From NCBI GenBank assembly GCA_030706745.1, contig JAUZNX010000010.1:62001-126000 (forward strand): a DNA stretch of 64,000 bases, in the 5' to 3' direction. The notes below the pieces were generated by a model. The model was not told the DNA's origin. It did not search any database and worked only from the letters and a program-made list of their open reading frames with translations. The number at the start of each line of letters is the position of its first letter. The stretch's first letter is position 1. This stretch comes from Bacteroidota bacterium (lineage in GTDB: Bacteria > Bacteroidota > Ignavibacteria > Palsa-1295). The translations under genes were made by a program, and so were the position numbers. Shown one piece after another: positions 13,007-59,387 of the stretch.

Positions 13007-16000
13007 ATGTATCGCTACTACTTCCTGGGCGCGAGGCTGGCCGTGTGCCTCATCGCGCTGTCTTTTTCAACAACCGCGTTTTCGCAGGACATCCCGCATA
13101 CTCTGAGCTATCAGGGTGTCCTTCAGGGCGCGGATAGCAAGATCGTCGCAGATGGACAGTACACTATCACTGTTCACTTGTATTCCGATGCCAATGGCGA
13201 CCGAGAAGTCTGGAAGGAAACACTTCCGACAACCCTATCCAACGGGATATTCAATATCGCGCTTGGGTCCACCATTCCCCTTCCGCCGATGGACCGCCCG
13301 CTCTGGGCTGGCACCCAAATCGGCAATGGCGAAGTGATGAAGCCGCTAACGCCACTTTCAGCAACGCCATACGCCCTTGGCATTGCCGATAATTCGGTCA
13401 CAAAAGGAAAGATGGCGACGGATTACGTAAGTTCGCTCACGCTTAATGGCCAGACCGTCAGCGGCCGCGGGGCTGACATTAATATTCAAACAGGCGATGG
13501 TATCGTTGCTGCGGTCGATCCGGCAACGAATACGCTGCTGCTCAAGTCCGGCCCGACTTCGCTTGAAGGCGCCAAAGGTGGTGCGGTACAGGGCAACACG
13601 ACGATCAGCGGCTCGCTTACGGTGACCGGCTCGTCGTATCTTGGTTCAAGCTCCGCGCCTACGACAATCTATGGCGATGAACATCTTTCAGGTAGCCTCA
13701 TCATGGCATCCGGCAAGACCCTTACGATTCCGGACCTGGCCTCCAGCAGTGTGGTGCGCACGGATGGATCGAGCAATCTGACGACGGGCAAGGTCGGGGT
13801 CTCGGACCTCTCGGCAACGGGATCGGCAAGCAGCACGACATTCCTGCGCGGTGACAATACATGGGCGGCCCCCGGCGGCAATGGTTGGAATCTCACCGGC
13901 AACTCCGGTACGACGTACCGCACGAACTTCATCGGCACGACCGATGGGCAGAACCTGCAAATCCGCGTGAATAACCAGCAGGCGGGGCTGATTGAATATA
14001 ATGGCAATACAAATACCGGCATTGGGTACCAAGTGTTGAATTCCAACACGACCGGTTTCAGCAACACCGCCAGCGGGTTTCAGTCGCTCTTTAGGAACAC
14101 AACCGGCATCCAAAATACAGCCAGCGGCACCTATGCGCTTTTTAGCAATACGACCGGCATCAGCAACACCGCCAGTGGTGCTGCTGCGCTCCTTGAGAAC
14201 ACGACCGGTAGCAACAACACGGCCATTGGCGGCGCTGCGCTCGAGATCAACACGACCGGCGGCGACAACACGGCAACTGGCTTTCAGGCGCTGGCATATA
14301 ATACGGCGGGCGGCAACAACACAGCCAGCGGGTCCTATGCGCTCTTTAGCAACTCGTCCGGCGGCAGCAACACCGCCAGCGGCTACGGTGCGCTCGAATC
14401 CAACACGACTGGCGGCTACAACACATCCAGCGGGGCCAATACGCTCGCGAACAACACGACCGGCACCTACAACACGGCCAGCGGCGCCTCTGCGCTCCGG
14501 GGCAACACAACCGGCAGCAACAACACGGCCAGCGGCCATCAGGCGCTTTATTCCAACACGACCGGCACCTACAACACGGCCAGCGGCGATCAGGCTCTCT
14601 ATAGCAACACGACGGGCAACTTCAACATGGCCAGCGGCAGCGGTACGCTCGCGAACAACACGACGGGCAACTTCAACATGGCCAGCGGCAGCGGTGCGCT
14701 CGCGAACAACACGACCGGCACCTACAACATGGCCAGCGGCGCCGATGCGCTGCTGAACAACACGACCGGCAACAACAACACCGCAAGCGGCCCCAATGCG
14801 CTTTATAGCAACACGACCGCCAGCGGCAATTCTGCATTTGGGTACGGCTCGCTGCAAGCGAACGCCTCAGGTGTTGCCAATGTCGCCGTTGGCGATAGCG
14901 CATTATTTTCAAATACAACTGCCAGTGGAAATACGGCAGTCGGATATCGGTCGATGTGGCGGAACGCGACAGGATTTGGTAATTCTGCTTTCGGCGATAG
15001 CGCATTAATCTTTAACAGATACGGCAACAACAATACGGCCGATGGTTACCAGGCACTCTCTTCCAACACGACCGGCGGCAGCAACACGGCCATCGGCTCT
15101 CAGGCGCTCAATAGCAACACGATCGGTTTCGAGAACACGGCCAGCGGCGCTCAGGCGCTCTTTAGCAACACGACCGGATTCGACAATATGGCCAGTGGCC
15201 TTCAGGCGCTCTATAGCAACACAGACGGGTACGAGAACACAGCCAGCGGCGTCCAGGCCCTCTTTAGCAACACAGACGGGTCCGAGAACACAGCCAGCGG
15301 TTTCGAGGCACTCGAATTCAATACAACCGGCAACTACAACACGGCCAGCGGCTATTTGGCGCTCAATAGCAATACGACCGGCTACTTCAACACGGCCAGC
15401 GGTGCCCAGGCTCTCGTCTTGAATACAACCGGCAACTTCAACACGGCCAGCGGCTATACGGCGCTCTTGAGCAACACGACCGGCGCTTACAACACCGCCA
15501 GCGGCGTCTATGCGCTGCTGAACAACACAACCGCCAGCGGCAATGCTGCCTTTGGTTTTGGTTCGCTCTTTACGAATACCGCTGGTGTTGCCAACGTCGC
15601 CGTAGGTGATAGCGCGCTCTTTAGGAGTACAACTGCCAGCGGAAATACAGCCGTCGGCTACCGGTCGATGTGGCAGAATACGACAGGATTTGACAATTCC
15701 GCTATCGGTGATAGCGCATTGTTCTCTAACACGACGGGCAGCAGCAGCACGGCCAGCGGCGTCTACGCGCTCAAATTCAACACGACTGCCAGCGGCAATG
15801 CTGCCTTTGGTTATGGCTCGCTCTATACGAATACCACCGGTGTTGCCAACGTCGCCGTTGGCGATAGCGCATTATTTTCAAATACAACCGCCAGCGGAAA
15901 CACCGCCGTCGGCTACCGTTCAATCTGGCAGAATACGACAGGGTTTGACAATTCCGCTATCGGCGATAGCGCATTATTCTCAAATACGATTGGCAACAGC

Positions 16001-18136
16001 AATACGGCCAGCGGTTCTCAGGCGCTCTTTAGCAACACAACCGGCACGTACAACACGGCCAGCGGCACTCAGGCGCTCCTTAGCAACACGACCGGCAACT
16101 ACAACACAGCCATCGGCTACATTACGCTCCAAAACAACACGACAGGCAGCAGCAACATGGCCAGCGGCGCCTATGCACTCTATAGCAATACAACTGGCGA
16201 CGACAACACCGCCAGCGGCACCGATGCACTCAATAACAACACGACCGGCCACAGCAACACCGCCAGCGGCGTCAGCGCGCTCTATGGCAACACGACCGGC
16301 AACTTCAACACCGCCAGCGGCTTTCTGGCACTTAACAGCAACACAACCGGAAGCAGCAACACGGCCAGCGGAATCGCAGCGCTGCGACAAAACACGACCG
16401 GCAGCGGGAATACTGCCAGCGGTTACTACGCACTCCAAGCCAACAGCGCAAGCGGCAATTCTGCCTTTGGTTATGGCTCGCTACAAACAAACACAACTGG
16501 TGTTGCCAACGTCGGTGTTGGCGATAGCGCATTGTATTCGAGTACAACTGCCAGCGGAAATACTGCCGTCGGCTATGCATCGATGTGGGAGAACACGACG
16601 GGGTATGACAATTCCGCTATCGGCGATAGCGCATTGTTCTCAAATACGACCGGTTACAACAACACGGCCAGTGGCGTCCAGGCGCTCTATAGCAACACAA
16701 CCGGCTTCGACAATACGGCGAGCGGCGCTTATGCGCTCTTTAGCAACTTATTCGGCGGCAACAACGCCGCCAGCGGCTTCTCTGCGCTCACGAGCAACAC
16801 GACCGGCTGGGGAAACACTGCTAGCGGCTTCTCTGCGCTCGCGAACAACACGAGCGGCGACTACAACACGGCCAGCGGTGCCTATGCGCTCATAAGCAAC
16901 ACGACCGGCAGCTTAAATACGGCCAGCGGCATCAGTGCGCTCTCTAGCAACACGACCGGTGACGAAAATACGGCCAGCGGAGACGATGCGCTCGCTAACA
17001 ACACGACCGGCATCGGAAATACGGCCAGCGGCGTCAGTGCGCTCTATGGCAACACGACCGGCGACGGTAACGCGGCCAGCGGAAAGTGGGCGCTTTTTAG
17101 CAACACGACCGGAAGCTTCAACACCGCCAGCGGCTACCAGGCGCTCTTTTCCAACACGACCGGCATCGAAAATACGGCCAGCGGTAGGCAGGCTCTCGGT
17201 GACAACACGACCGGCGGCAACAACACGGCCAGCGGCACGTATGCGCTTTATAGCAACACGACCGCCAGCGGCAATTCTGCCTTTGGGTATGGCTCGCTGC
17301 AAGCGAACACCACCGGCGTTGCCAATGTCGCCCTTGGTGATAGTGCGCTCTATTCAAATACGACCGCCAGCGGAAACACCGCCGTCGGCTACCGTTCGAT
17401 GTGGCAGAATACGACGGGGCATGACAATTCCGCTATCGGCGATAGCGCATTGTTCTCAAACACGACTGGCTTCAAGAACACCGGCATCGGCTTCGAGGCA
17501 CTTCATAGCAACACGACCGGCGTCAACAACACGGCAACGGGCTTTCAGGCGCTCTATGACAACACGACCGGCAACGACAACACGGTAACGGGCGTTGCGG
17601 CGCTCGAAATCAACACGTCCGGCACCAACAACACGGCCACCGGCGTGGCTTCGCTTGCCAACAACTCGACCGGCAATGGTAACACCGCCAGCGGCTGGGG
17701 GGCACTATCTTCTAACTTAGCTGGCACCAATCTGACTGCAATCGGCATAAGCGCTGACGTGAGTACCGATGGCCTTACAGACGCTACCGCGATCGGGGCC
17801 AATGCTTCAGTCACTGCCAGCCACACAGTGCAACTTGGCAGTTCGACGGTGACGGTGGTCCATACCTCCGGCTCGATCGTGACCACTGCTGGCTTTGCGG
17901 CGGCATATCGCGCGGACAATAGCGCAAGCGTCACCATCCTTGCGACGGACCACATCGTGAAGCTCACGCACGCGGGTTCGACCGGCGTGACCATGCCCAC
18001 GCCGATCGCGGCCGGGCAGGTGATCACGATCTGGAATGCGACCGGATCTGCAACGACCACGACCGTGGTGCCCAATGGCGCCGCCTACGAATTTGTAACG
18101 GATGGTTCAACCTGGTCGCACGTGCCACTGCAATAG
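13007..18136 (+). CDS. Giant secreted repeat protein (YadA-head-like 17-residue repeats)
   Basis: A 1709-residue exported protein. The signal peptide ends near AFSQD and is followed by about 130 residues (PHTLSYQGVLQ, DGQYTITVHLYSD, PLTPLSATPYALG) found at the start of many Bacteroidota surface proteins. From about residue 340 to 1570 the chain is a near-uninterrupted run of some 70 units of 17 residues with consensus NTASGxxALxSNTTGxx, similar in style to collagen-free head repeats of trimeric adhesins. Five copies of a longer super-repeat (ASGNSAFGYGSL...AVGYRSMWQNTTG) punctuate the run. The C-terminal 120 residues form a separate beta-rich domain. No T9SS tail or S74 peptidase is visible. 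Likely a surface fibre or adhesin. The start at 13007 is an ATG directly before the signal peptide. Confidence 0.88.
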   Translation: MYRYYFLGARLAVCLIALSFSTTAFSQDIPHTLSYQGVLQGADSKIVADGQYTITVHLYSDANGDREVWKETLPTTLSNGIFNIALGSTIPLPPMDRPLWAGTQIGNGEVMKPLTPLSATPYALGIADNSVTKGKMATDYVSSLTLNGQTVSGRGADINIQTGDGIVAAVDPATNTLLLKSGPTSLEGAKGGAVQGNTTISGSLTVTGSSYLGSSSAPTTIYGDEHLSGSLIMASGKTLTIPDLASSSVVRTDGSSNLTTGKVGVSDLSATGSASSTTFLRGDNTWAAPGGNGWNLTGNSGTTYRTNFIGTTDGQNLQIRVNNQQAGLIEYNGNTNTGIGYQVLNSNTTGFSNTASGFQSLFRNTTGIQNTASGTYALFSNTTGISNTASGAAALLENTTGSNNTAIGGAALEINTTGGDNTATGFQALAYNTAGGNNTASGSYALFSNSSGGSNTASGYGALESNTTGGYNTSSGANTLANNTTGTYNTASGASALRGNTTGSNNTASGHQALYSNTTGTYNTASGDQALYSNTTGNFNMASGSGTLANNTTGNFNMASGSGALANNTTGTYNMASGADALLNNTTGNNNTASGPNALYSNTTASGNSAFGYGSLQANASGVANVAVGDSALFSNTTASGNTAVGYRSMWRNATGFGNSAFGDSALIFNRYGNNNTADGYQALSSNTTGGSNTAIGSQALNSNTIGFENTASGAQALFSNTTGFDNMASGLQALYSNTDGYENTASGVQALFSNTDGSENTASGFEALEFNTTGNYNTASGYLALNSNTTGYFNTASGAQALVLNTTGNFNTASGYTALLSNTTGAYNTASGVYALLNNTTASGNAAFGFGSLFTNTAGVANVAVGDSALFRSTTASGNTAVGYRSMWQNTTGFDNSAIGDSALFSNTTGSSSTASGVYALKFNTTASGNAAFGYGSLYTNTTGVANVAVGDSALFSNTTASGNTAVGYRSIWQNTTGFDNSAIGDSALFSNTIGNSNTASGSQALFSNTTGTYNTASGTQALLSNTTGNYNTAIGYITLQNNTTGSSNMASGAYALYSNTTGDDNTASGTDALNNNTTGHSNTASGVSALYGNTTGNFNTASGFLALNSNTTGSSNTASGIAALRQNTTGSGNTASGYYALQANSASGNSAFGYGSLQTNTTGVANVGVGDSALYSSTTASGNTAVGYASMWENTTGYDNSAIGDSALFSNTTGYNNTASGVQALYSNTTGFDNTASGAYALFSNLFGGNNAASGFSALTSNTTGWGNTASGFSALANNTSGDYNTASGAYALISNTTGSLNTASGISALSSNTTGDENTASGDDALANNTTGIGNTASGVSALYGNTTGDGNAASGKWALFSNTTGSFNTASGYQALFSNTTGIENTASGRQALGDNTTGGNNTASGTYALYSNTTASGNSAFGYGSLQANTTGVANVALGDSALYSNTTASGNTAVGYRSMWQNTTGHDNSAIGDSALFSNTTGFKNTGIGFEALHSNTTGVNNTATGFQALYDNTTGNDNTVTGVAALEINTSGTNNTATGVASLANNSTGNGNTASGWGALSSNLAGTNLTAIGISADVSTDGLTDATAIGANASVTASHTVQLGSSTVTVVHTSGSIVTTAGFAAAYRADNSASVTILATDHIVKLTHAGSTGVTMPTPIAAGQVITIWNATGSATTTTVVPNGAAYEFVTDGSTWSHVPLQ
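14020..17710 (+). repeat. 51-bp tandem coding repeats with five super-repeats
   Basis: DNA-level counterpart of the 17-residue repeats: about 72 units of 51 bp. Five super-repeat blocks of about 200 bp lie near 14811-15010, 15530-15735, 15780-15990, 16447-16650 and 17262-17465, and are more similar to each other than to the simple units between them. Such an array is prone to recombination and length change. It also keeps two other frames open for hundreds of codons, giving false ORFs on both strands. Confidence 0.9.
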
Positions 18137-47155: not shown

Positions 47156-48625
47156 TTACTTCCCGATCAGCGCGACTTTTCCGGCGGGGATCATCTGGCC
47201 GTCGCGCTCGATCATCACCGAGTAGATTCCGCGCGGAAGTTGGGATACATCGAGTGTGAGCGTGCCATCGGCAGGGATGAATCCGCTCAAAGCCTCTCGG
47301 CCCATGACATCGAGCAGTCGCATTTGGCTTCTCTCGCTCACCAAAGTAATCTTAAGAGAAGCGGTGGCAGGGTTCGGATAGAAGATCGCCTTTGGCGTCG
47401 GCAGCGCGGACCCTGTGACTCCTAAATTCACCTTTTCCAAGCGAGCAACAAATGATGGTGCGCTAATCGCAGGCGGGCTGGCAGCAAATATGCCGAGGCA
47501 GTGTCCGTCCCCGGTTACCGCCAGACTCAGGATCGCCAGTGGATTGATCGTATCCTGAAGGAGCGTATCAACCTCCCATTCCATCCCATGATCGACACTT
47601 ATTAAGATGCGTCGCTTGCCGGTTAAGCCACCAAGGAACACAACGTCACGGTCAAGAGAGGACATACAGTGAAGATCCTCGACGAGAGTATCAGGAAGTG
47701 TGATGGGCATCCAGTGATATCCTCCGTCCACACTTTTGGTGATATAAGATGGCTTGTCGAAGACATTCAATTCTCCAGGGCCATTGTTTTGTGCTCCAAA
47801 GCCTACAATTGTATCTTCGCCTCTAAAGTTAACGGAGAATAGTGAGTGGATCGTATCATCGATTGGAATTATGCGTGGGGTCGAATCCACTGTTTGCCAA
47901 TTATCAGCCGTACTGTATACGGGACCTGTCCAGTAGGAAACGACGCGGAATCTATCGCCCCGATCCGAATGGCAGGACCAAGCAAATAAGTGAGAAAAAG
48001 GGGCCAAATCCCAGTGATTCCCTCCGTCATGCGTAGTAAATATCTTACCGTTCGATTGAGTTACAATACCTGTCGCCGGATCTGAAAAATGGACATCGAA
48101 AACACGATATGAAGAATTTGGAGGCTGGCTGGTTAGCGGGAGATTTTGCTTCTGCCAAGTTAGTCCGCCATCGAATGTTCTGACGATTAGTCCTGAGTCG
48201 CCAATGACGACCGCATTTAGAGAATCAATTTGCTGAATCTTTTGGACAAACCGATTGGGAAGGATGTCGGTTGGAAGACCCGGATCTTGCTCACTCCAAG
48301 TAAGTCCTCCGTCTAAGCTACGATAGAACATGATAGCATACGGTCCAATAAAGCTCCCAGTGGAAGAGTCTAGCTTTATCGGCCCAAGCGAAGTATCCAT
48401 CCTCAGAGCAGCGGCGGTGCATACTTCTCCGGCGCAATCGAGTGATGTGAAGTCATATTGATACTTGCCAGCGGTAACGCCAGGGAGTGTCATGTGCCAG
48501 CGGTATTGCGCTCGCGTGCCTGTCGAGATCATCAGACACGCGAGTAGCGCAAAGAGATATGGCGAATATGGACTTCGGCCTTTCATCAGTTGCAGGCGTC
48601 GCGGCATGGCACGGAATAGCACCAA
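47156..48625 (-). CDS. T9SS-exported Asp-box beta-propeller protein, copy 1
   Basis: A 489-residue secreted protein. A hydrophobic N-terminal segment (YLFALLACLMISTGTRAQ) is the signal peptide; translation could start at an internal Met (MPRRLQLMKG or MKGRSPY). The body carries several Ycf48-like Asp-boxes (SLDGGLTWSEQD, TFDGGLTWQKQ, THDGGNHWDLAPF, SVDGGYHWMPI, SVDHGMEWEVD). The final 80 residues form a type IX sorting tail (FYPNPATASLKITL, LLDVMGREAL, PRGIYSVMIERDGQM). The gene overlaps the upstream Cys-rich gene by 40 bases. It is paralogous to 49531-50958; the last 25 codons are almost identical in DNA while the middle has diverged. Confidence 0.88.
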   Translation of the reverse strand: MVLFRAMPRRLQLMKGRSPYSPYLFALLACLMISTGTRAQYRWHMTLPGVTAGKYQYDFTSLDCAGEVCTAAALRMDTSLGPIKLDSSTGSFIGPYAIMFYRSLDGGLTWSEQDPGLPTDILPNRFVQKIQQIDSLNAVVIGDSGLIVRTFDGGLTWQKQNLPLTSQPPNSSYRVFDVHFSDPATGIVTQSNGKIFTTHDGGNHWDLAPFSHLFAWSCHSDRGDRFRVVSYWTGPVYSTADNWQTVDSTPRIIPIDDTIHSLFSVNFRGEDTIVGFGAQNNGPGELNVFDKPSYITKSVDGGYHWMPITLPDTLVEDLHCMSSLDRDVVFLGGLTGKRRILISVDHGMEWEVDTLLQDTINPLAILSLAVTGDGHCLGIFAASPPAISAPSFVARLEKVNLGVTGSALPTPKAIFYPNPATASLKITLVSERSQMRLLDVMGREALSGFIPADGTLTLDVSQLPRGIYSVMIERDGQMIPAGKVALIGK

Positions 48626-49259
48626 TCAGCTACCCAAGCGGTGGCGACAGTGGGTGCAGGGCTATCAACACACGCACAGCCGGTCGGGCCGGTGCATCGG
48701 CAATTTGAAATTATATCAGCGCCAGTAGTATCGCGGCATACGTCACAAGTCGACTGACAATAGCACCCGGCAAGGGAAGTGCATGCTGTATATTGTGACT
48801 GACCTGTAGCAGGATTCGGGTTACGCTTCCAGCATCCCGGCACACAGGATGTTACCACCTGACTTGCTCCCTGCCCGCATGGGTTGATCTGCATACCATC
48901 CAAGAGATACTCGCGTGCGACAATCTCGGCTCCCCAGATCATTAGTACCGGATTAACATCGCAATCACTGCTGCTTGGCACATCTACCTCGTAGACCCAG
49001 AGCTGTAAGATGCCTGAGCACGCTCGTGAGCAATAATAGACCTTCCGAAACATGTTGTGCCCGAAATGGGAAAGTAGGTCCATCCACCAGGGATCCACGC
49101 ACAAGAGTCTGGGTTCGGCGCAGGTCCGGTACTATCAGGGCACTGTGCCCTCATGCTAGTCGCGAATGAAACGAGAAGCATGAACAAAGCTGCCAGCGCG
49201 CTTAGCTTGTTGAGCGCTGGGTGCTGAGTCAGCGACTTTTCATTCAAAGAGTTTCTCAT
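48586..49259 (-). pseudogene. Cys-rich secreted protein, copy 1, with a frameshift
   Basis: The 5' part (49259 to about 49050) encodes a signal peptide and AQCPDSTGPAPNP...SGTTCFG. The 3' part, in another frame, encodes KVYYCSRACSG...WVYEVD...VPGCW...GCYC...CTGPTGCACVD...PCRDACN. Together they match the intact-body paralogue at 50925-51524 along the whole length (there GTSCYVTVYYC). Alignment places a one-base deletion at 49041-49049. About 18 Cys residues in the mature protein suggest a disulphide-rich extracellular domain of unknown function. Its 3' end overlaps the Asp-box gene downstream. Whether the break is real or a sequencing error cannot be told from one sequence. Confidence 0.75.
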
Positions 49260-49358: not shown

Positions 49359-49430
49359 TTAATTCCCAGCGCGGAAGATCATCTCGCCGGGCCGCTTCAT
49401 GTTGTAGCGTTCACGGGCAATGTGCTCGCT
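49359..49430 (-). pseudogene. Duplicated 3' fragment of the divIC/ftsB-like gene
   Basis: This stretch matches the last ~25 codons of the septum protein gene at 51745-52059 (encoding ERYNMKRPGEMIFRAGN) with only a few substitutions. It continues downstream into the shared, near-identical flank around 49313-49358. It is the right-hand end of the first unit of a tandem duplication and has no start of its own. The match stops abruptly near 49428. Confidence 0.8.
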
Positions 49431-49431
49431 A

Positions 49432-49526
49432 AGGACACCCGCCCCATCGTCAGCGGCGAGGACGGCCTCCGCGCCCTCGAAGTCGCCGAGCAGATTTTGC
49501 AGGCGATTGAGAGTAATATTTCGTAG
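49432..49526 (+). pseudogene. Duplicated 3' fragment of the Gfo/Idh oxidoreductase gene
   Basis: In frame with the original gene this fragment encodes DTRP-I-VSGEDGLRALEVAEQIL-Q-AIESNIS and a stop, matching the last 31 residues of 46153-47151 with two changes. It is joined directly to the divIC fragment at about 49428-49432, marking the novel junction of the tandem duplication. There is no start codon or upstream coding sequence, so it is a relic. Confidence 0.85.
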
Positions 49527-49530
49527 CCAG

Positions 49531-50958
49531 TTACTTCCCGATCAGCGCGACTTTTCCGGCGGGGATCATCTGGCCGTCGCGCTCGATCACGACCTCATAC
49601 ATCCCGCGTGGAAGCGAGGAGACGTCGAGGGTAAGGGTACCATCGGCAGGAATGATGTCACGGACCACCTCGACACCAACCACATTGAGAAGCTGCACGA
49701 CACATCGCATCTCAGGGGAGATAATTGTGATAGCCGAAATGGCGGGATTAGGATAGAAATCGCTGACTCTAGTCGGTGGCGCGTTTGATTTGATGTCCAA
49801 AGGAATCGGATCGCCCCGAGCAAGAACTGCTTGCCCCCACGAGAAAGGATTGTCGGAGAGTGCACCCACCGCATGGCCCGAGGGCGTAACGCTAATGCTA
49901 TAAACGAAGGACGGGTCATAAGCGGTATCCATCATCAGTGTATCGATCCTCCAACTCATGCCATGATCCGAACTCACGATAATTTTGTGAAAGTTTGCCC
50001 CCCCGACAAAAACGATACCCCGGTCAGGTGAAGACATGCAGTGAGCATTAGTCACAATAGTGTCAGGCACGTCAACTTTTGTCCAACTCATGCCGCCATC
50101 GACGCTCTGTAGGATATAAGAAGGCATACTCAGACTTAAGAACGTATCGACGACTCCATAAGCAATGATCGTATCCGAGCCTCTAAATCCGAACCCAGTG
50201 AGTAAGTGAATTCGGTCTCCGTCTGGAATAATGGGTGGTGTCGAGTCCACAGTTATCCAGTTATCTGAAGTCTTGTAGATCGGGATATTTCGCCCGCTGT
50301 AAGGTGTCATGCGAAATGAATTGCCGCCATCCGCGTGACAAAATCCAGGCGATCGCCAAGGCGTAAATGGTGCGAGCAGCCAATTTTGCCCACCATCGTG
50401 CGTAATAAGTATATCGGAGCGGGAAACCAAGCCTGTGTCTGGGTGTGACATTACGAGGATCCCATTCATTGGGTCAGAAAAACTCACATCCTCAATAAAG
50501 TGTTTAGAGTGGGCGTCCTGGGTTTGCCATGTCTTTCCACAATCGGATGTTCTTAGAATTAGACCTGAATCGCCAACAGCCACTGCGGTTAGTGAGTCTA
50601 TCTGCTGTAATGAATATACGGGATTCGGGTCGTCGCTCTGAAAATGAGGCAGACCAGGATCTTGCTCTATCCAATTGAGTCCGGCATCCGTGCTTCGAAA
50701 GAATAATACCCGATTTCGGTCAATAGTCTTCAAGGTCGTGTCGCGTTTCACTCCCGTCGCGGTGCAGACCTCCCCGGCACATGAGACTATATTAAAGTGA
50801 AAAATAGACTGGGCATCGCGGCCTGAATGAGAAATGTGCCAGCGATACTGCGCCCGCAGGCCTGACGAAATGGTCAGGCCTGCGAACACGATTCCGAGCA
50901 TCGTGAGTACAAATAATCTATTCCTCATGGGCAAGGCTGGCAAGGCACGGAGACGCAA
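49531..50958 (-). CDS. T9SS-exported Asp-box beta-propeller protein, copy 2
   Basis: Secreted protein of 475 residues and paralogue of 47156-48625. The signal peptide (LFVLTMLGIVFAGLTISSGLRAQ) is followed by YRWHISHSG, as in copy 1 (YRWHMTLPG). Asp-boxes include STDAGLNWIEQD, TSDCGKTWQTQD, THDGGQNWLLAPF, SVDGGMSWTKV and SSDHGMSWRID. The sorting tail reads FYPNPAISAITIIS, LLNVVGVEVV and PRGMYEVVIERDGQM. Its start overlaps the upstream Cys-rich gene by 34 bases, repeating the overlap seen in copy 1. Export to the cell surface is likely; the function is unknown. Confidence 0.88.
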   Translation of the reverse strand: MRLRALPALPMRNRLFVLTMLGIVFAGLTISSGLRAQYRWHISHSGRDAQSIFHFNIVSCAGEVCTATGVKRDTTLKTIDRNRVLFFRSTDAGLNWIEQDPGLPHFQSDDPNPVYSLQQIDSLTAVAVGDSGLILRTSDCGKTWQTQDAHSKHFIEDVSFSDPMNGILVMSHPDTGLVSRSDILITHDGGQNWLLAPFTPWRSPGFCHADGGNSFRMTPYSGRNIPIYKTSDNWITVDSTPPIIPDGDRIHLLTGFGFRGSDTIIAYGVVDTFLSLSMPSYILQSVDGGMSWTKVDVPDTIVTNAHCMSSPDRGIVFVGGANFHKIIVSSDHGMSWRIDTLMMDTAYDPSFVYSISVTPSGHAVGALSDNPFSWGQAVLARGDPIPLDIKSNAPPTRVSDFYPNPAISAITIISPEMRCVVQLLNVVGVEVVRDIIPADGTLTLDVSSLPRGMYEVVIERDGQMIPAGKVALIGK

Positions 50959-51524
50959 TAGTCCGTGGGCCAGACTATTGGATACTGTGGAGCTGGATCA
51001 TTTACGCATGCACAGCCGCTTGGCCCAGTGGAACGGCAGTTCGTATGTGAGAATTCCCCCGGATGGTCATAGTGGCATACGTCCCAAGTCAGTTGACAGT
51101 AACAGCCAGCCTGTGGTGTGCAGGCAGCGTACTTTGATCCAGTTGTCGGATTGTATTGATACTTCCAACATCCAGGGACGTAGGATGTCACCGTTGAAGT
51201 TATCGGGCCCCCGCAGTATGCCGGAGGCGCATAATTGATAAGGGCGTCATAAATTGCGATATCCCCTGCATCCCAGATTAATTGGATTGGGTCAATCGCA
51301 TTGCAGGCACTCGTTGGATCGGGGTCTACCTCATAAACCCAGACCTCCGTGGAATATCCCTCGCAACTTCTCCAGCAATAATAGACAGTGACATAGCATG
51401 ATGTGCCGGGAATGATCTTGTAAGCCGAGGCGCTATGCCAAGGGCACGTTGCCGGATCTGGTGCTGGGCCAGTGTTATCAGGACATTGCGCCCGTGCACT
51501 ACTCGACAACGAAACGAGGAGCAA
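50925..51524 (-). CDS. Cys-rich secreted protein, copy 2 (start out of frame across a heptamer tract)
   Basis: The body is 200 residues with about 20 Cys, beginning AQCPDNTGPAPDP and ending VSVPCQPCP, homologous to copy 1. The in-frame TTG at 51524 would leave only MLLVSLSSSARA as leader. Upstream in the same frame the codons give ALSILWALAPLLLLLVSLSSSARAQ, a proper signal peptide, but no ATG. The only sensible ATG (51631, MQLSKKTKPTG) is in another frame, and the intervening 6.6 copies of a 7-bp repeat separate the two. Adding one repeat copy (or one base in the adjacent A8 tract) would fuse them. The gene is therefore probably phase-variable and OFF in this sequence. It overlaps the copy 2 Asp-box gene downstream. 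Confidence 0.7.
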   Translation of the reverse strand: MLLVSLSSSARAQCPDNTGPAPDPATCPWHSASAYKIIPGTSCYVTVYYCWRSCEGYSTEVWVYEVDPDPTSACNAIDPIQLIWDAGDIAIYDALINYAPPAYCGGPITSTVTSYVPGCWKYQYNPTTGSKYAACTPQAGCYCQLTWDVCHYDHPGEFSHTNCRSTGPSGCACVNDPAPQYPIVWPTDYCVSVPCQPCP

Positions 51525-51551
51525 GAGAAGTGGAGCAAGAGCCCATAATAT

Positions 51552-51597
51552 GCTGAGTGCTGAGTGCTGAGTGCTGAGTGCTGAGTGCTGAGTGCTG
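51552..51597 (-). repeat. Heptanucleotide tandem repeat in signal-peptide region
   Basis: Six and a half copies of CAGCACT (AGTGCTG on the plus strand) within the 5' coding region of the Cys-rich gene. Copy 1 has a related, non-iterated sequence here (encoding LTQHPALNKLSA). A second slippage-prone tract of eight A lies at 51613-51620 on the minus strand, just after the ATG at 51631. Each gain or loss of a 7-mer shifts the reading frame by one. Confidence 0.9.
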
Positions 51598-51744
51598 AAC
51601 CAGTTGGTTTTGTTTTTTTTGAGAGTTGCATGTCACAAAAGCAATTAGATGAATACAACATATGAATCACACAACCACGGGTGGTCTCGGGAGAGCTTCT
51701 CGGGATCTCGAGTGGACGCTACATGAAAGACCTTTCACCCGGCA

Positions 51745-52059
51745 TTAATTCCCAGCGCGGAAGATCATCTCGCCGGGGCGTTTCATGTTGTAGCGTTCGC
51801 GGGCAATGCGCTCGATGGTGCCGGCATCTTCCAGTTTGAGTAGCGCAATGTGGCGACTGACTGTCTCTTCGTCAGTCTGAAGTTTCGCCATATAGGTTTT
51901 GCGCTCGTTGATCTCGTGGCGGAGCGAGATGTGCCGCCAGAGTCCCTTGTTCGCGAAGAGCAACGTCATGCCGAGCACGGTGAGCACGCCGGTGATAAGC
52001 AGCATGCGCGGGTTTCGGAGAATCCGCTTAAGTCGTTTTTTTATTGAGGTTCTGGTCAC
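51745..52059 (-). CDS. Septum formation initiator family protein (FtsB/DivIC-like)
   Basis: Small bitopic cell division protein of 104 residues. A basic N-terminus is followed by one TM helix (LLITGVLTVLGMTLLF), an extracytoplasmic coiled coil (EINERKTYMAKLQTDEETVSRHIALLKL) and the family end motif TIERIARERYNMKRPGEMIF, which contacts FtsL/FtsQ partners in known systems. Length and order are typical of FtsB/DivIC. Its 3' end is duplicated at 49359-49430. Confidence 0.9.
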   Translation of the reverse strand: MTRTSIKKRLKRILRNPRMLLITGVLTVLGMTLLFANKGLWRHISLRHEINERKTYMAKLQTDEETVSRHIALLKLEDAGTIERIARERYNMKRPGEMIFRAGN

Positions 52060-52375
52060 GATCTCATCTGCTCATCGCGCGAAGTGGATAACTCTGGGCA
52101 GGAGTCACTTCGCCTCTGCACGCCGAATCAATTTTGTCTTTCTTGCCGAGCGATCGTGAGGGGTATCACAATTCTTGACTTCAGTAACATGCAAATATAC
52201 ATCATTTTCAAAGCCATGTCAAGAGTCTATTTAAATTATTCCTCTCTTTGGGTCCATTTTTAAACCAGAAATGGGATTTAAAGGGTTGAATTTTAAACCT
52301 GTGGATAAGGGAAGTAACGGGTAACGGGTAACGAGTATCGAGCAAAGGGTACCGTACCAGGCAACGAGTTGAGTC
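52060..52375. other. Gene-free spacer with heptamer-like repeats
   Basis: No supported gene in these 316 bases. The part near 52180-52300 is A+T-rich and probably carries the divIC promoter (minus strand). At 52314-52355 about six degenerate 7-bp units can be read (GTAACGG, GTAACGG, GTAACGA, GTATCGA, then two weaker). The region also contains inverted TTTAAA-flanked segments around 52260-52300. Confidence 0.55.
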
Positions 52376-58720: not shown

Positions 58721-58857
58721 CGCTACACCGCGGCGGCATGCCTTTTCTAAAAAGAAACAGGTGCCCGTATGATTAATTCTTCGATCGCCTCTTGGCTTCC
58801 TGATTTAGCGTCCCGTATATTCAACTGAGGGTTGATAGGCACCCTTTCTGGGGAAAA

Positions 58858-58885
58858 GATGAAATATGAAGTATGAAAGATGAAG
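58858..58885 (+). repeat. Heptamer repeat GATGAAA/TATGAAG
   Basis: Four 7-bp units: GATGAAA, TATGAAG, TATGAAA, GATGAAG. Closely related to the array at 59133-59160. Confidence 0.75.
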
Positions 58886-59132
58886 CGAGGGTGCCGCAAT
58901 TTGCTCATTGACAACTTAGGCGCGTCGTCCCCGCAGTTGCGCACCGGGTCGATCTAAAAGATCGATTGCACAGCCGAGAACGGCTGTTCCACTGATTAGC
59001 GATTACGGTTTGGGCAACGGTCAGGACGTGCGCGGCACGTCCCTACGATTATTTGCAGAATTCATCGAAAATATGCGATGCCGGAGGTATCGAACAACGT
59101 TATATTAGGTGGAGGGGGGTCTCTCGGGAAAA

Positions 59133-59160
59133 TATGAAATATGAAGTATGAAATATGAAA
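59133..59160 (+). repeat. Heptamer repeat TATGAAA
   Basis: Four 7-bp units: TATGAAA, TATGAAG, TATGAAA, TATGAAA, non-coding. Confidence 0.8.
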
Positions 59161-59387
59161 TTGGCTCTTTTCAATCAAGAAGCATGGTTGGCCAGGTGAC
59201 ACCGTAGCTCGTTCATGAATATTTTCCGAAAACGCAATATAAAATTATATAGCGTGTCTGATGGCACAGTGAGTGAGAATCGCGAGAAAGGAGAGGGCGT
59301 TCATTAAATGACAATTCAAAAGAGAGAATTAAAGCACTACTTTAACTTTGGGCACCTATTTCAATAGGCAAACAACCCTCGGTTGAA

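Follow-up and report, generated by a model that had tools for sequence, protein, structure and literature searches.

A perfect heptanucleotide array in the leader of a gene for a secreted, Cys-rich protein, here called gene A, probably forms a contingency locus at which translation is phase-variable; the switch probably extends to a module of two genes for secreted proteins. The window analyzed is the whole 64,000-nucleotide stretch of a contig from a Bacteroidota bacterium, and all gene A features lie on its minus strand. The array (CAGCACT x 6.9, 48 bp, 51551-51598) is open in all three frames and stands between an ATG at 51629-51631 and the core of the signal peptide. A preliminary description of the sequence was right about the existence of the array; the 6.6 copies given there are replaced by 6.9 copies of period 7 according to TRF, with six whole CAGCACT units at 51597-51556. 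The ATG is the probable start codon of gene A, judging from frame arithmetic, from its position and from homologues that have an ATG at the equivalent place. It opens an n-region (MQLSKKTKPTG) that contains an A8 tract (51613-51620), a possible second slippage site, and its frame differs from that of the mature protein as assembled. The hydrophobic leader LWALAPLLLLLVSLSSSARA (51489-51548), which comprises the h- and c-region of a signal peptide, aligns with the in-frame leaders of homologues and is in frame with the mature protein (50925-51488, stop codon at 50927-50925). ATG 51631 lies 107 nt from the mature frame (2 mod 3), so that a change of +1 mod 3 (+7, -14 or A9) restores the frame. 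Frame arithmetic thus bears out both earlier claims, namely that the ATG, the A8 tract and the array are out of frame with the leader and mature protein and that one 7-mer more or two fewer would bring them into frame. As assembled, the frame of ATG 51631 encodes 101 unrelated residues up to a stop at 51328-51326, and the mature frame runs for 199 codons with no stop and with the family cysteines kept.

On this model, slipped-strand mispairing would alter the number of CAGCACT units (or of As) and would bring ATG 51631 into, or take it out of, the reading frame shared by the signal-peptide core and the mature Cys-rich protein, about one in three copy numbers being ON. The assembled 6.9 units would represent an OFF state, in which a 101-residue out-of-frame peptide would be made and the ribosome would stop about 400 nt before the gene A stop. 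Directly following gene A is a companion gene for a secreted BNR/YCF48-like (sortilin-like) protein with a T9SS sorting tail (49531-50928, minus strand), whose ATG overlaps the gene A stop codon (ATGA). Translational coupling through such gene overlaps is known (PMC10666635). Because the companion starts within the gene A stop codon, and because ribosomes in the OFF state would stop so far upstream of it, the switch probably lowers translation of the companion too, and the two-gene secreted module would then vary together. Slippage at the gene A locus, the choice of start codon, the coupling to the companion and the benefit of switching are steps that we infer; cells may gain from varying a protein that is secreted or exposed at the surface, for example in relation to phages, predators or partners.

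The survey of the heptamer background covered 464 kb of the genome, made up of the window and twenty stretches of 20 kb. This sample contained nine perfect period-7 arrays of at least 18 bp, the longest being that of gene A (48 bp) and the next measuring 27 bp; shuffled sequence submitted to the same test contained none. The gene A array is the only one in this genome with at least three exact CAGCACT units, and near-doublets of CAGCACT/TAGCACT occur four times elsewhere, each on or next to a gene boundary. Heptamer arrays in this genome are mostly located outside ORFs, and in the lineage they are found at about 3% of the sampled gene starts. Given this frequency and the doublets at four other sites, the gene A array alone could belong to a lineage-wide pool of heptamers. 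The argument that a heptamer by itself proves phase variation was therefore rejected: such arrays are habitual in the lineage, a heptamer alone is weak evidence, and the family needed examining. We found no second genome with the gene A locus at another copy number, the nearest sister genome, G001, being without the cassette; in place of a strain series for the locus, the family was tested.

Homologues of the mature protein are present in the same genome, in sister species and in other families of the same class, and 11 cysteines are invariant in an alignment of 22 family members. A BNR/YCF48-like T9SS gene lies directly downstream in 39 of the 81 family stretches (about half), and among the 34 pairs of family member and companion in which the start is clear, 16 overlap or are directly adjacent. 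Gene A itself has no match in Pfam or NCBIfam and no C-terminal Por_Secre_tail domain (T9SS type A sorting); this domain was detected in one homologue of A and in the companions of both gene A and its paralogue, P. Structure prediction of gene A with P gave a mean pLDDT of 53 and the Foldseek search no match at E <= 0.001, for which reason no fold is claimed. A profile search of solved structures returned a single match at chance level (E 0.15).

We then analyzed the family leaders for strong non-triplet SSRs within -130 to +120 of the match start, in the 81 members with the leader covered. Such tracts were present at 18 of the 81 family leaders versus 32 of 588 gene starts drawn at random from the members' genomes (p 4e-6) and, with heptamers excluded, at 15 of 81 versus 13 of 588 (p 5e-8), both p values being too small because the members are not independent and paralogues share tracts. 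In the same genes, taken as a control, SSRs were found at 2 of 79 3' ends and at 1 of 73 middles. The tract units differ between members, and classes such as poly-G are spread over the tree, not confined to one clade. Tracts in coding leaders lie between the n-region and the hydrophobic core, i.e. at the n/h junction. Apart from CAGCACT in gene A, they consist of the 8-mer ACACTCAA x 3.9 in G007:C5, G8-G9 in four G002 genes, G7 and G9 in G313, G10 and G11 in G018, G10 in G076:C128, A9 in G104:C98 and the 16-mer TTCTGGCCGACACGCC in G025; the tract in G151 is CAGACAG x 6 (exact units). G104:C98 has a close paralogue, G104:C110, whose leader is in frame and lacks a tract of this kind. In further homologues the tracts lie upstream of the ATG ((AAATT)14, TTAAG and TTTTA pentamers, T14). 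The occurrence of quite different repeats at the same spot in relatives suggests selection in favour of the switch. One family member with a T9SS-like tail, L058 (G383:C53), carries its (AAATT)14 array (71 bp) 42 bp upstream of the ATG, which makes it a candidate for transcriptional phase variation.

ON and OFF states were judged by the natural ATG for 14 coding tracts; those of G151 were excluded, as two ATGs compete there. Eight are OFF as assembled (gene A in G000, G007:C5, G002:C6b, G002:C50, G313:C31, G018:C69, G076:C128 and G104:C98) and six are ON (G002:C6a, G002:C22, G313:C247, G018:C96 and both G025 genes), which is compatible with the ratio of about 2:1 expected from free slippage. 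Behind almost all of the 14 tracts the mature frame is intact. The OFF members, too, mostly keep it open; one of them, G313:C31, also has a stop in its mature part. Four poly-G genes, with G7 (G313:C31, L025), G9 (G313:C247, L059), G11 (G018:C69, L168) and G10 (G018:C96, L208), have near-identical upstream DNA, promoter and n-region. G313 and G018 are two sister species of one genus, and the mature parts of these four genes differ between the two pairs. Between the 9-G and 10-G copies, the extra G is compensated by the loss of one base in the n-region of one copy, so that both read through the leader. In G025, one paralogue contains 5 whole 16-mers and the other 2, and because these tracts differ by 48 bp the frame is unaffected. 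The frame-switch reading of the preliminary description thus has strong, if indirect, support: unrelated hypermutable tracts recur at the same site far more often than in three controls, ON and OFF states are mixed, and lengths differ in near-identical leaders of sister species and between paralogues. This support is at the level of the family; for this exact gene A locus, switching is likely rather than proven.

Paralogue P (48586-49259, minus strand) had been taken as undisrupted. Its leader (MRNSLNEKSLTQHPALNKLSALAALFMLLVSFATSMRAQC) is indeed comparable and in frame, but a frameshift of one base near 49040-49053 interrupts the mature part. This shift lies outside any repeat and suggests some decay in the cluster. 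At the place equivalent to the array the P leader carries TCAGCACCCAGCGCTCAAC, which corresponds to about 2.7 degenerate copies of the CAGCACT unit. A seed for the array would thus have existed in coding sequence, making it plausible, as had been proposed, that the repeat expanded there. P is followed by its own companion, a second BNR/YCF48-like T9SS protein (47156-48586, minus strand) whose start overlaps the P stop (TGATG). The cassette insertion is flanked by a DivIC-like septum formation initiator (51745-52059, minus strand), and the DNA between the two cassettes (49360-49530) repeats 3' fragments of the two flanking genes, DivIC and the oxidoreductase gene. These copies are near-identical to the originals over about 100 bp, whereas the identity between A and P is only about 50%; a tandem joining of two different cassettes via flanking homology fits this better than a simple duplication followed by slow divergence. 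The fragments accordingly suggest tandem duplication or joining, or an exchange of cassettes, through flanking homology. In G001, whose DivIC is 91% identical, DivIC faces the oxidoreductase directly with no cassette, and neither G001 nor the sister genome G004 has a copy of gene A.

The absence of gene A from these sister genomes, its out-of-frame state as assembled and the frameshift of P outside any repeat would all agree with a pseudogene that was broken by the repeat expansion and is decaying together with P. We consider this unlikely, as the 199-codon mature frame of gene A is stop-free with its cysteines kept, homologues that bear tracts are often in frame, those that are OFF mostly have intact frames, and tracts concentrate at leaders and not elsewhere in genes. 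An error of assembly or sequencing, the true genome being in frame and invariant, is very improbable. The genome is a draft of 30 contigs and the homopolymer cases in relatives could be misread, but ordinary short reads span a 48-bp array, the counts of 7-mers, 8-mers and 16-mers are not typical sequencing errors, and the recurrence of the tracts cannot itself be an error.

The start codon determines where the array lies: it is coding if ATG 51631 is used and upstream of the start if translation begins at TTG 51524 (51522-51524), the earliest ATG, GTG or TTG of the open mature frame. With a start at this TTG or at a non-standard codon, the array would be mere 5' untranslated sequence, like the intergenic heptamers of other bacteria. 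The TTG is in frame, heptamer arrays in this genome mostly avoid ORFs, and TAACTGA repeats are found just upstream of starts elsewhere (PMC4679880); we nevertheless regard this explanation as very unlikely. TTG 51524 lies within the hydrophobic core, and a start there leaves MLLVSLSSSARA, a product with no n-region and with most of the core missing, for which reason it was rejected as an ordinary start. Complete leaders in homologues begin upstream at an ATG, and the homologous tracts lie between this ATG and the core, in some cases demonstrably in frame (G002:C6a, G018:C96, G025).

The proposed translational switch at ATG 51631 can be compared with three known systems. In Neisseria opa, slippage at a CTCTT repeat in the coding sequence of the leader peptide brings the gene into or out of frame (PMC3745409). 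Gene A resembles opa, a multigene family of surface proteins, in having a non-triplet repeat within the leader coding sequence. It differs in being Cys-rich, without a Pfam match, from another lineage and unrelated in sequence, in family units that vary by member (1, 7, 8, 16 nt) where opa has one conserved pentamer, and in the second secreted protein that follows in an overlapping gene. In tests for Opa-type features, gene A had no homology to the Opa beta-barrel (Pfam/NCBIfam), its unit was CAGCACT and not CTCTT, and the pentamers of its relatives were upstream of the ATG. The oipA (hopH) gene of Helicobacter pylori is turned on and off by frameshift through a CT tract in the signal-peptide region (PMC10564699), and gene A likewise has a tract in this region with a predicted frameshift switch. 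However, oipA has a dinucleotide tract and encodes an outer-membrane Hop protein unrelated to gene A in sequence. To our knowledge it has no coupled companion. The TAACTGA heptamer direct repeats of Beggiatoaceae, Cyanobacteria and Bacteroidetes lie for the most part between genes, a short distance upstream of starts, and regulator binding has been proposed for them (PMC4679880). They share with gene A perfect heptamers near gene starts, and the gene A lineage also has intergenic ones. In contrast, the gene A array lies between ATG 51631 and the signal-peptide core and would alter the frame, and many genome-wide arrays of one unit, as in the TAACTGA case, were not found for CAGCACT.

At even chances, in our estimate, stands the broader proposal that one class of uncultured T9SS-bearing bacteria harbours an undescribed family of phase-variable two-gene modules, each consisting of a Cys-rich exported protein and a translationally coupled BNR-propeller T9SS cargo. 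In these modules a slippery tract would have arisen several times, with different units, at the n/h junction or upstream of the gene, and cassettes would have been shuffled via flanking homology. A literature search, incomplete in its coverage, gave no account of the gene A family or of cargo of this type being switched by SSRs. Phase variation by SSRs is known mostly from host-adapted pathogens. If true, this proposal would mean that hypermutable DNA has been recruited repeatedly, and apparently by convergence, as a switch for a secreted module in bacteria other than the usual pathogens: across a whole family of exported proteins in a little-studied class, tracts with units of 1, 7, 8 or 16 nucleotides would serve at one site of the signal peptide. 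Fluctuating selection would then be likely to act on the module, which would also offer a case, open to experiment, of one switch that may control two proteins via translational coupling.

More short or degenerate heptamer arrays (GTAACGG, AAATATG) are present in the window at 52314-52342, 58855-58885 and 59130-59161, as part of the lineage-wide heptamer habit. In L111, L117, L124 and L135 the ORF starts run through heptamer arrays (MTNDK..., MRITNYELRMTN..., SITNYELRIT...), so that for many genes of this lineage the predicted N-terminus may be incorrect or subject to switching. The window also encodes, at 13007-18136 on the plus strand, a secreted ORF of 1709 aa consisting largely of 17-aa repeats (like NTASGxxALxSNTTGxxN), with a DNA period of 51 bp and also of 102, 153 and 255 bp; it is apparently a large repeat surface protein.
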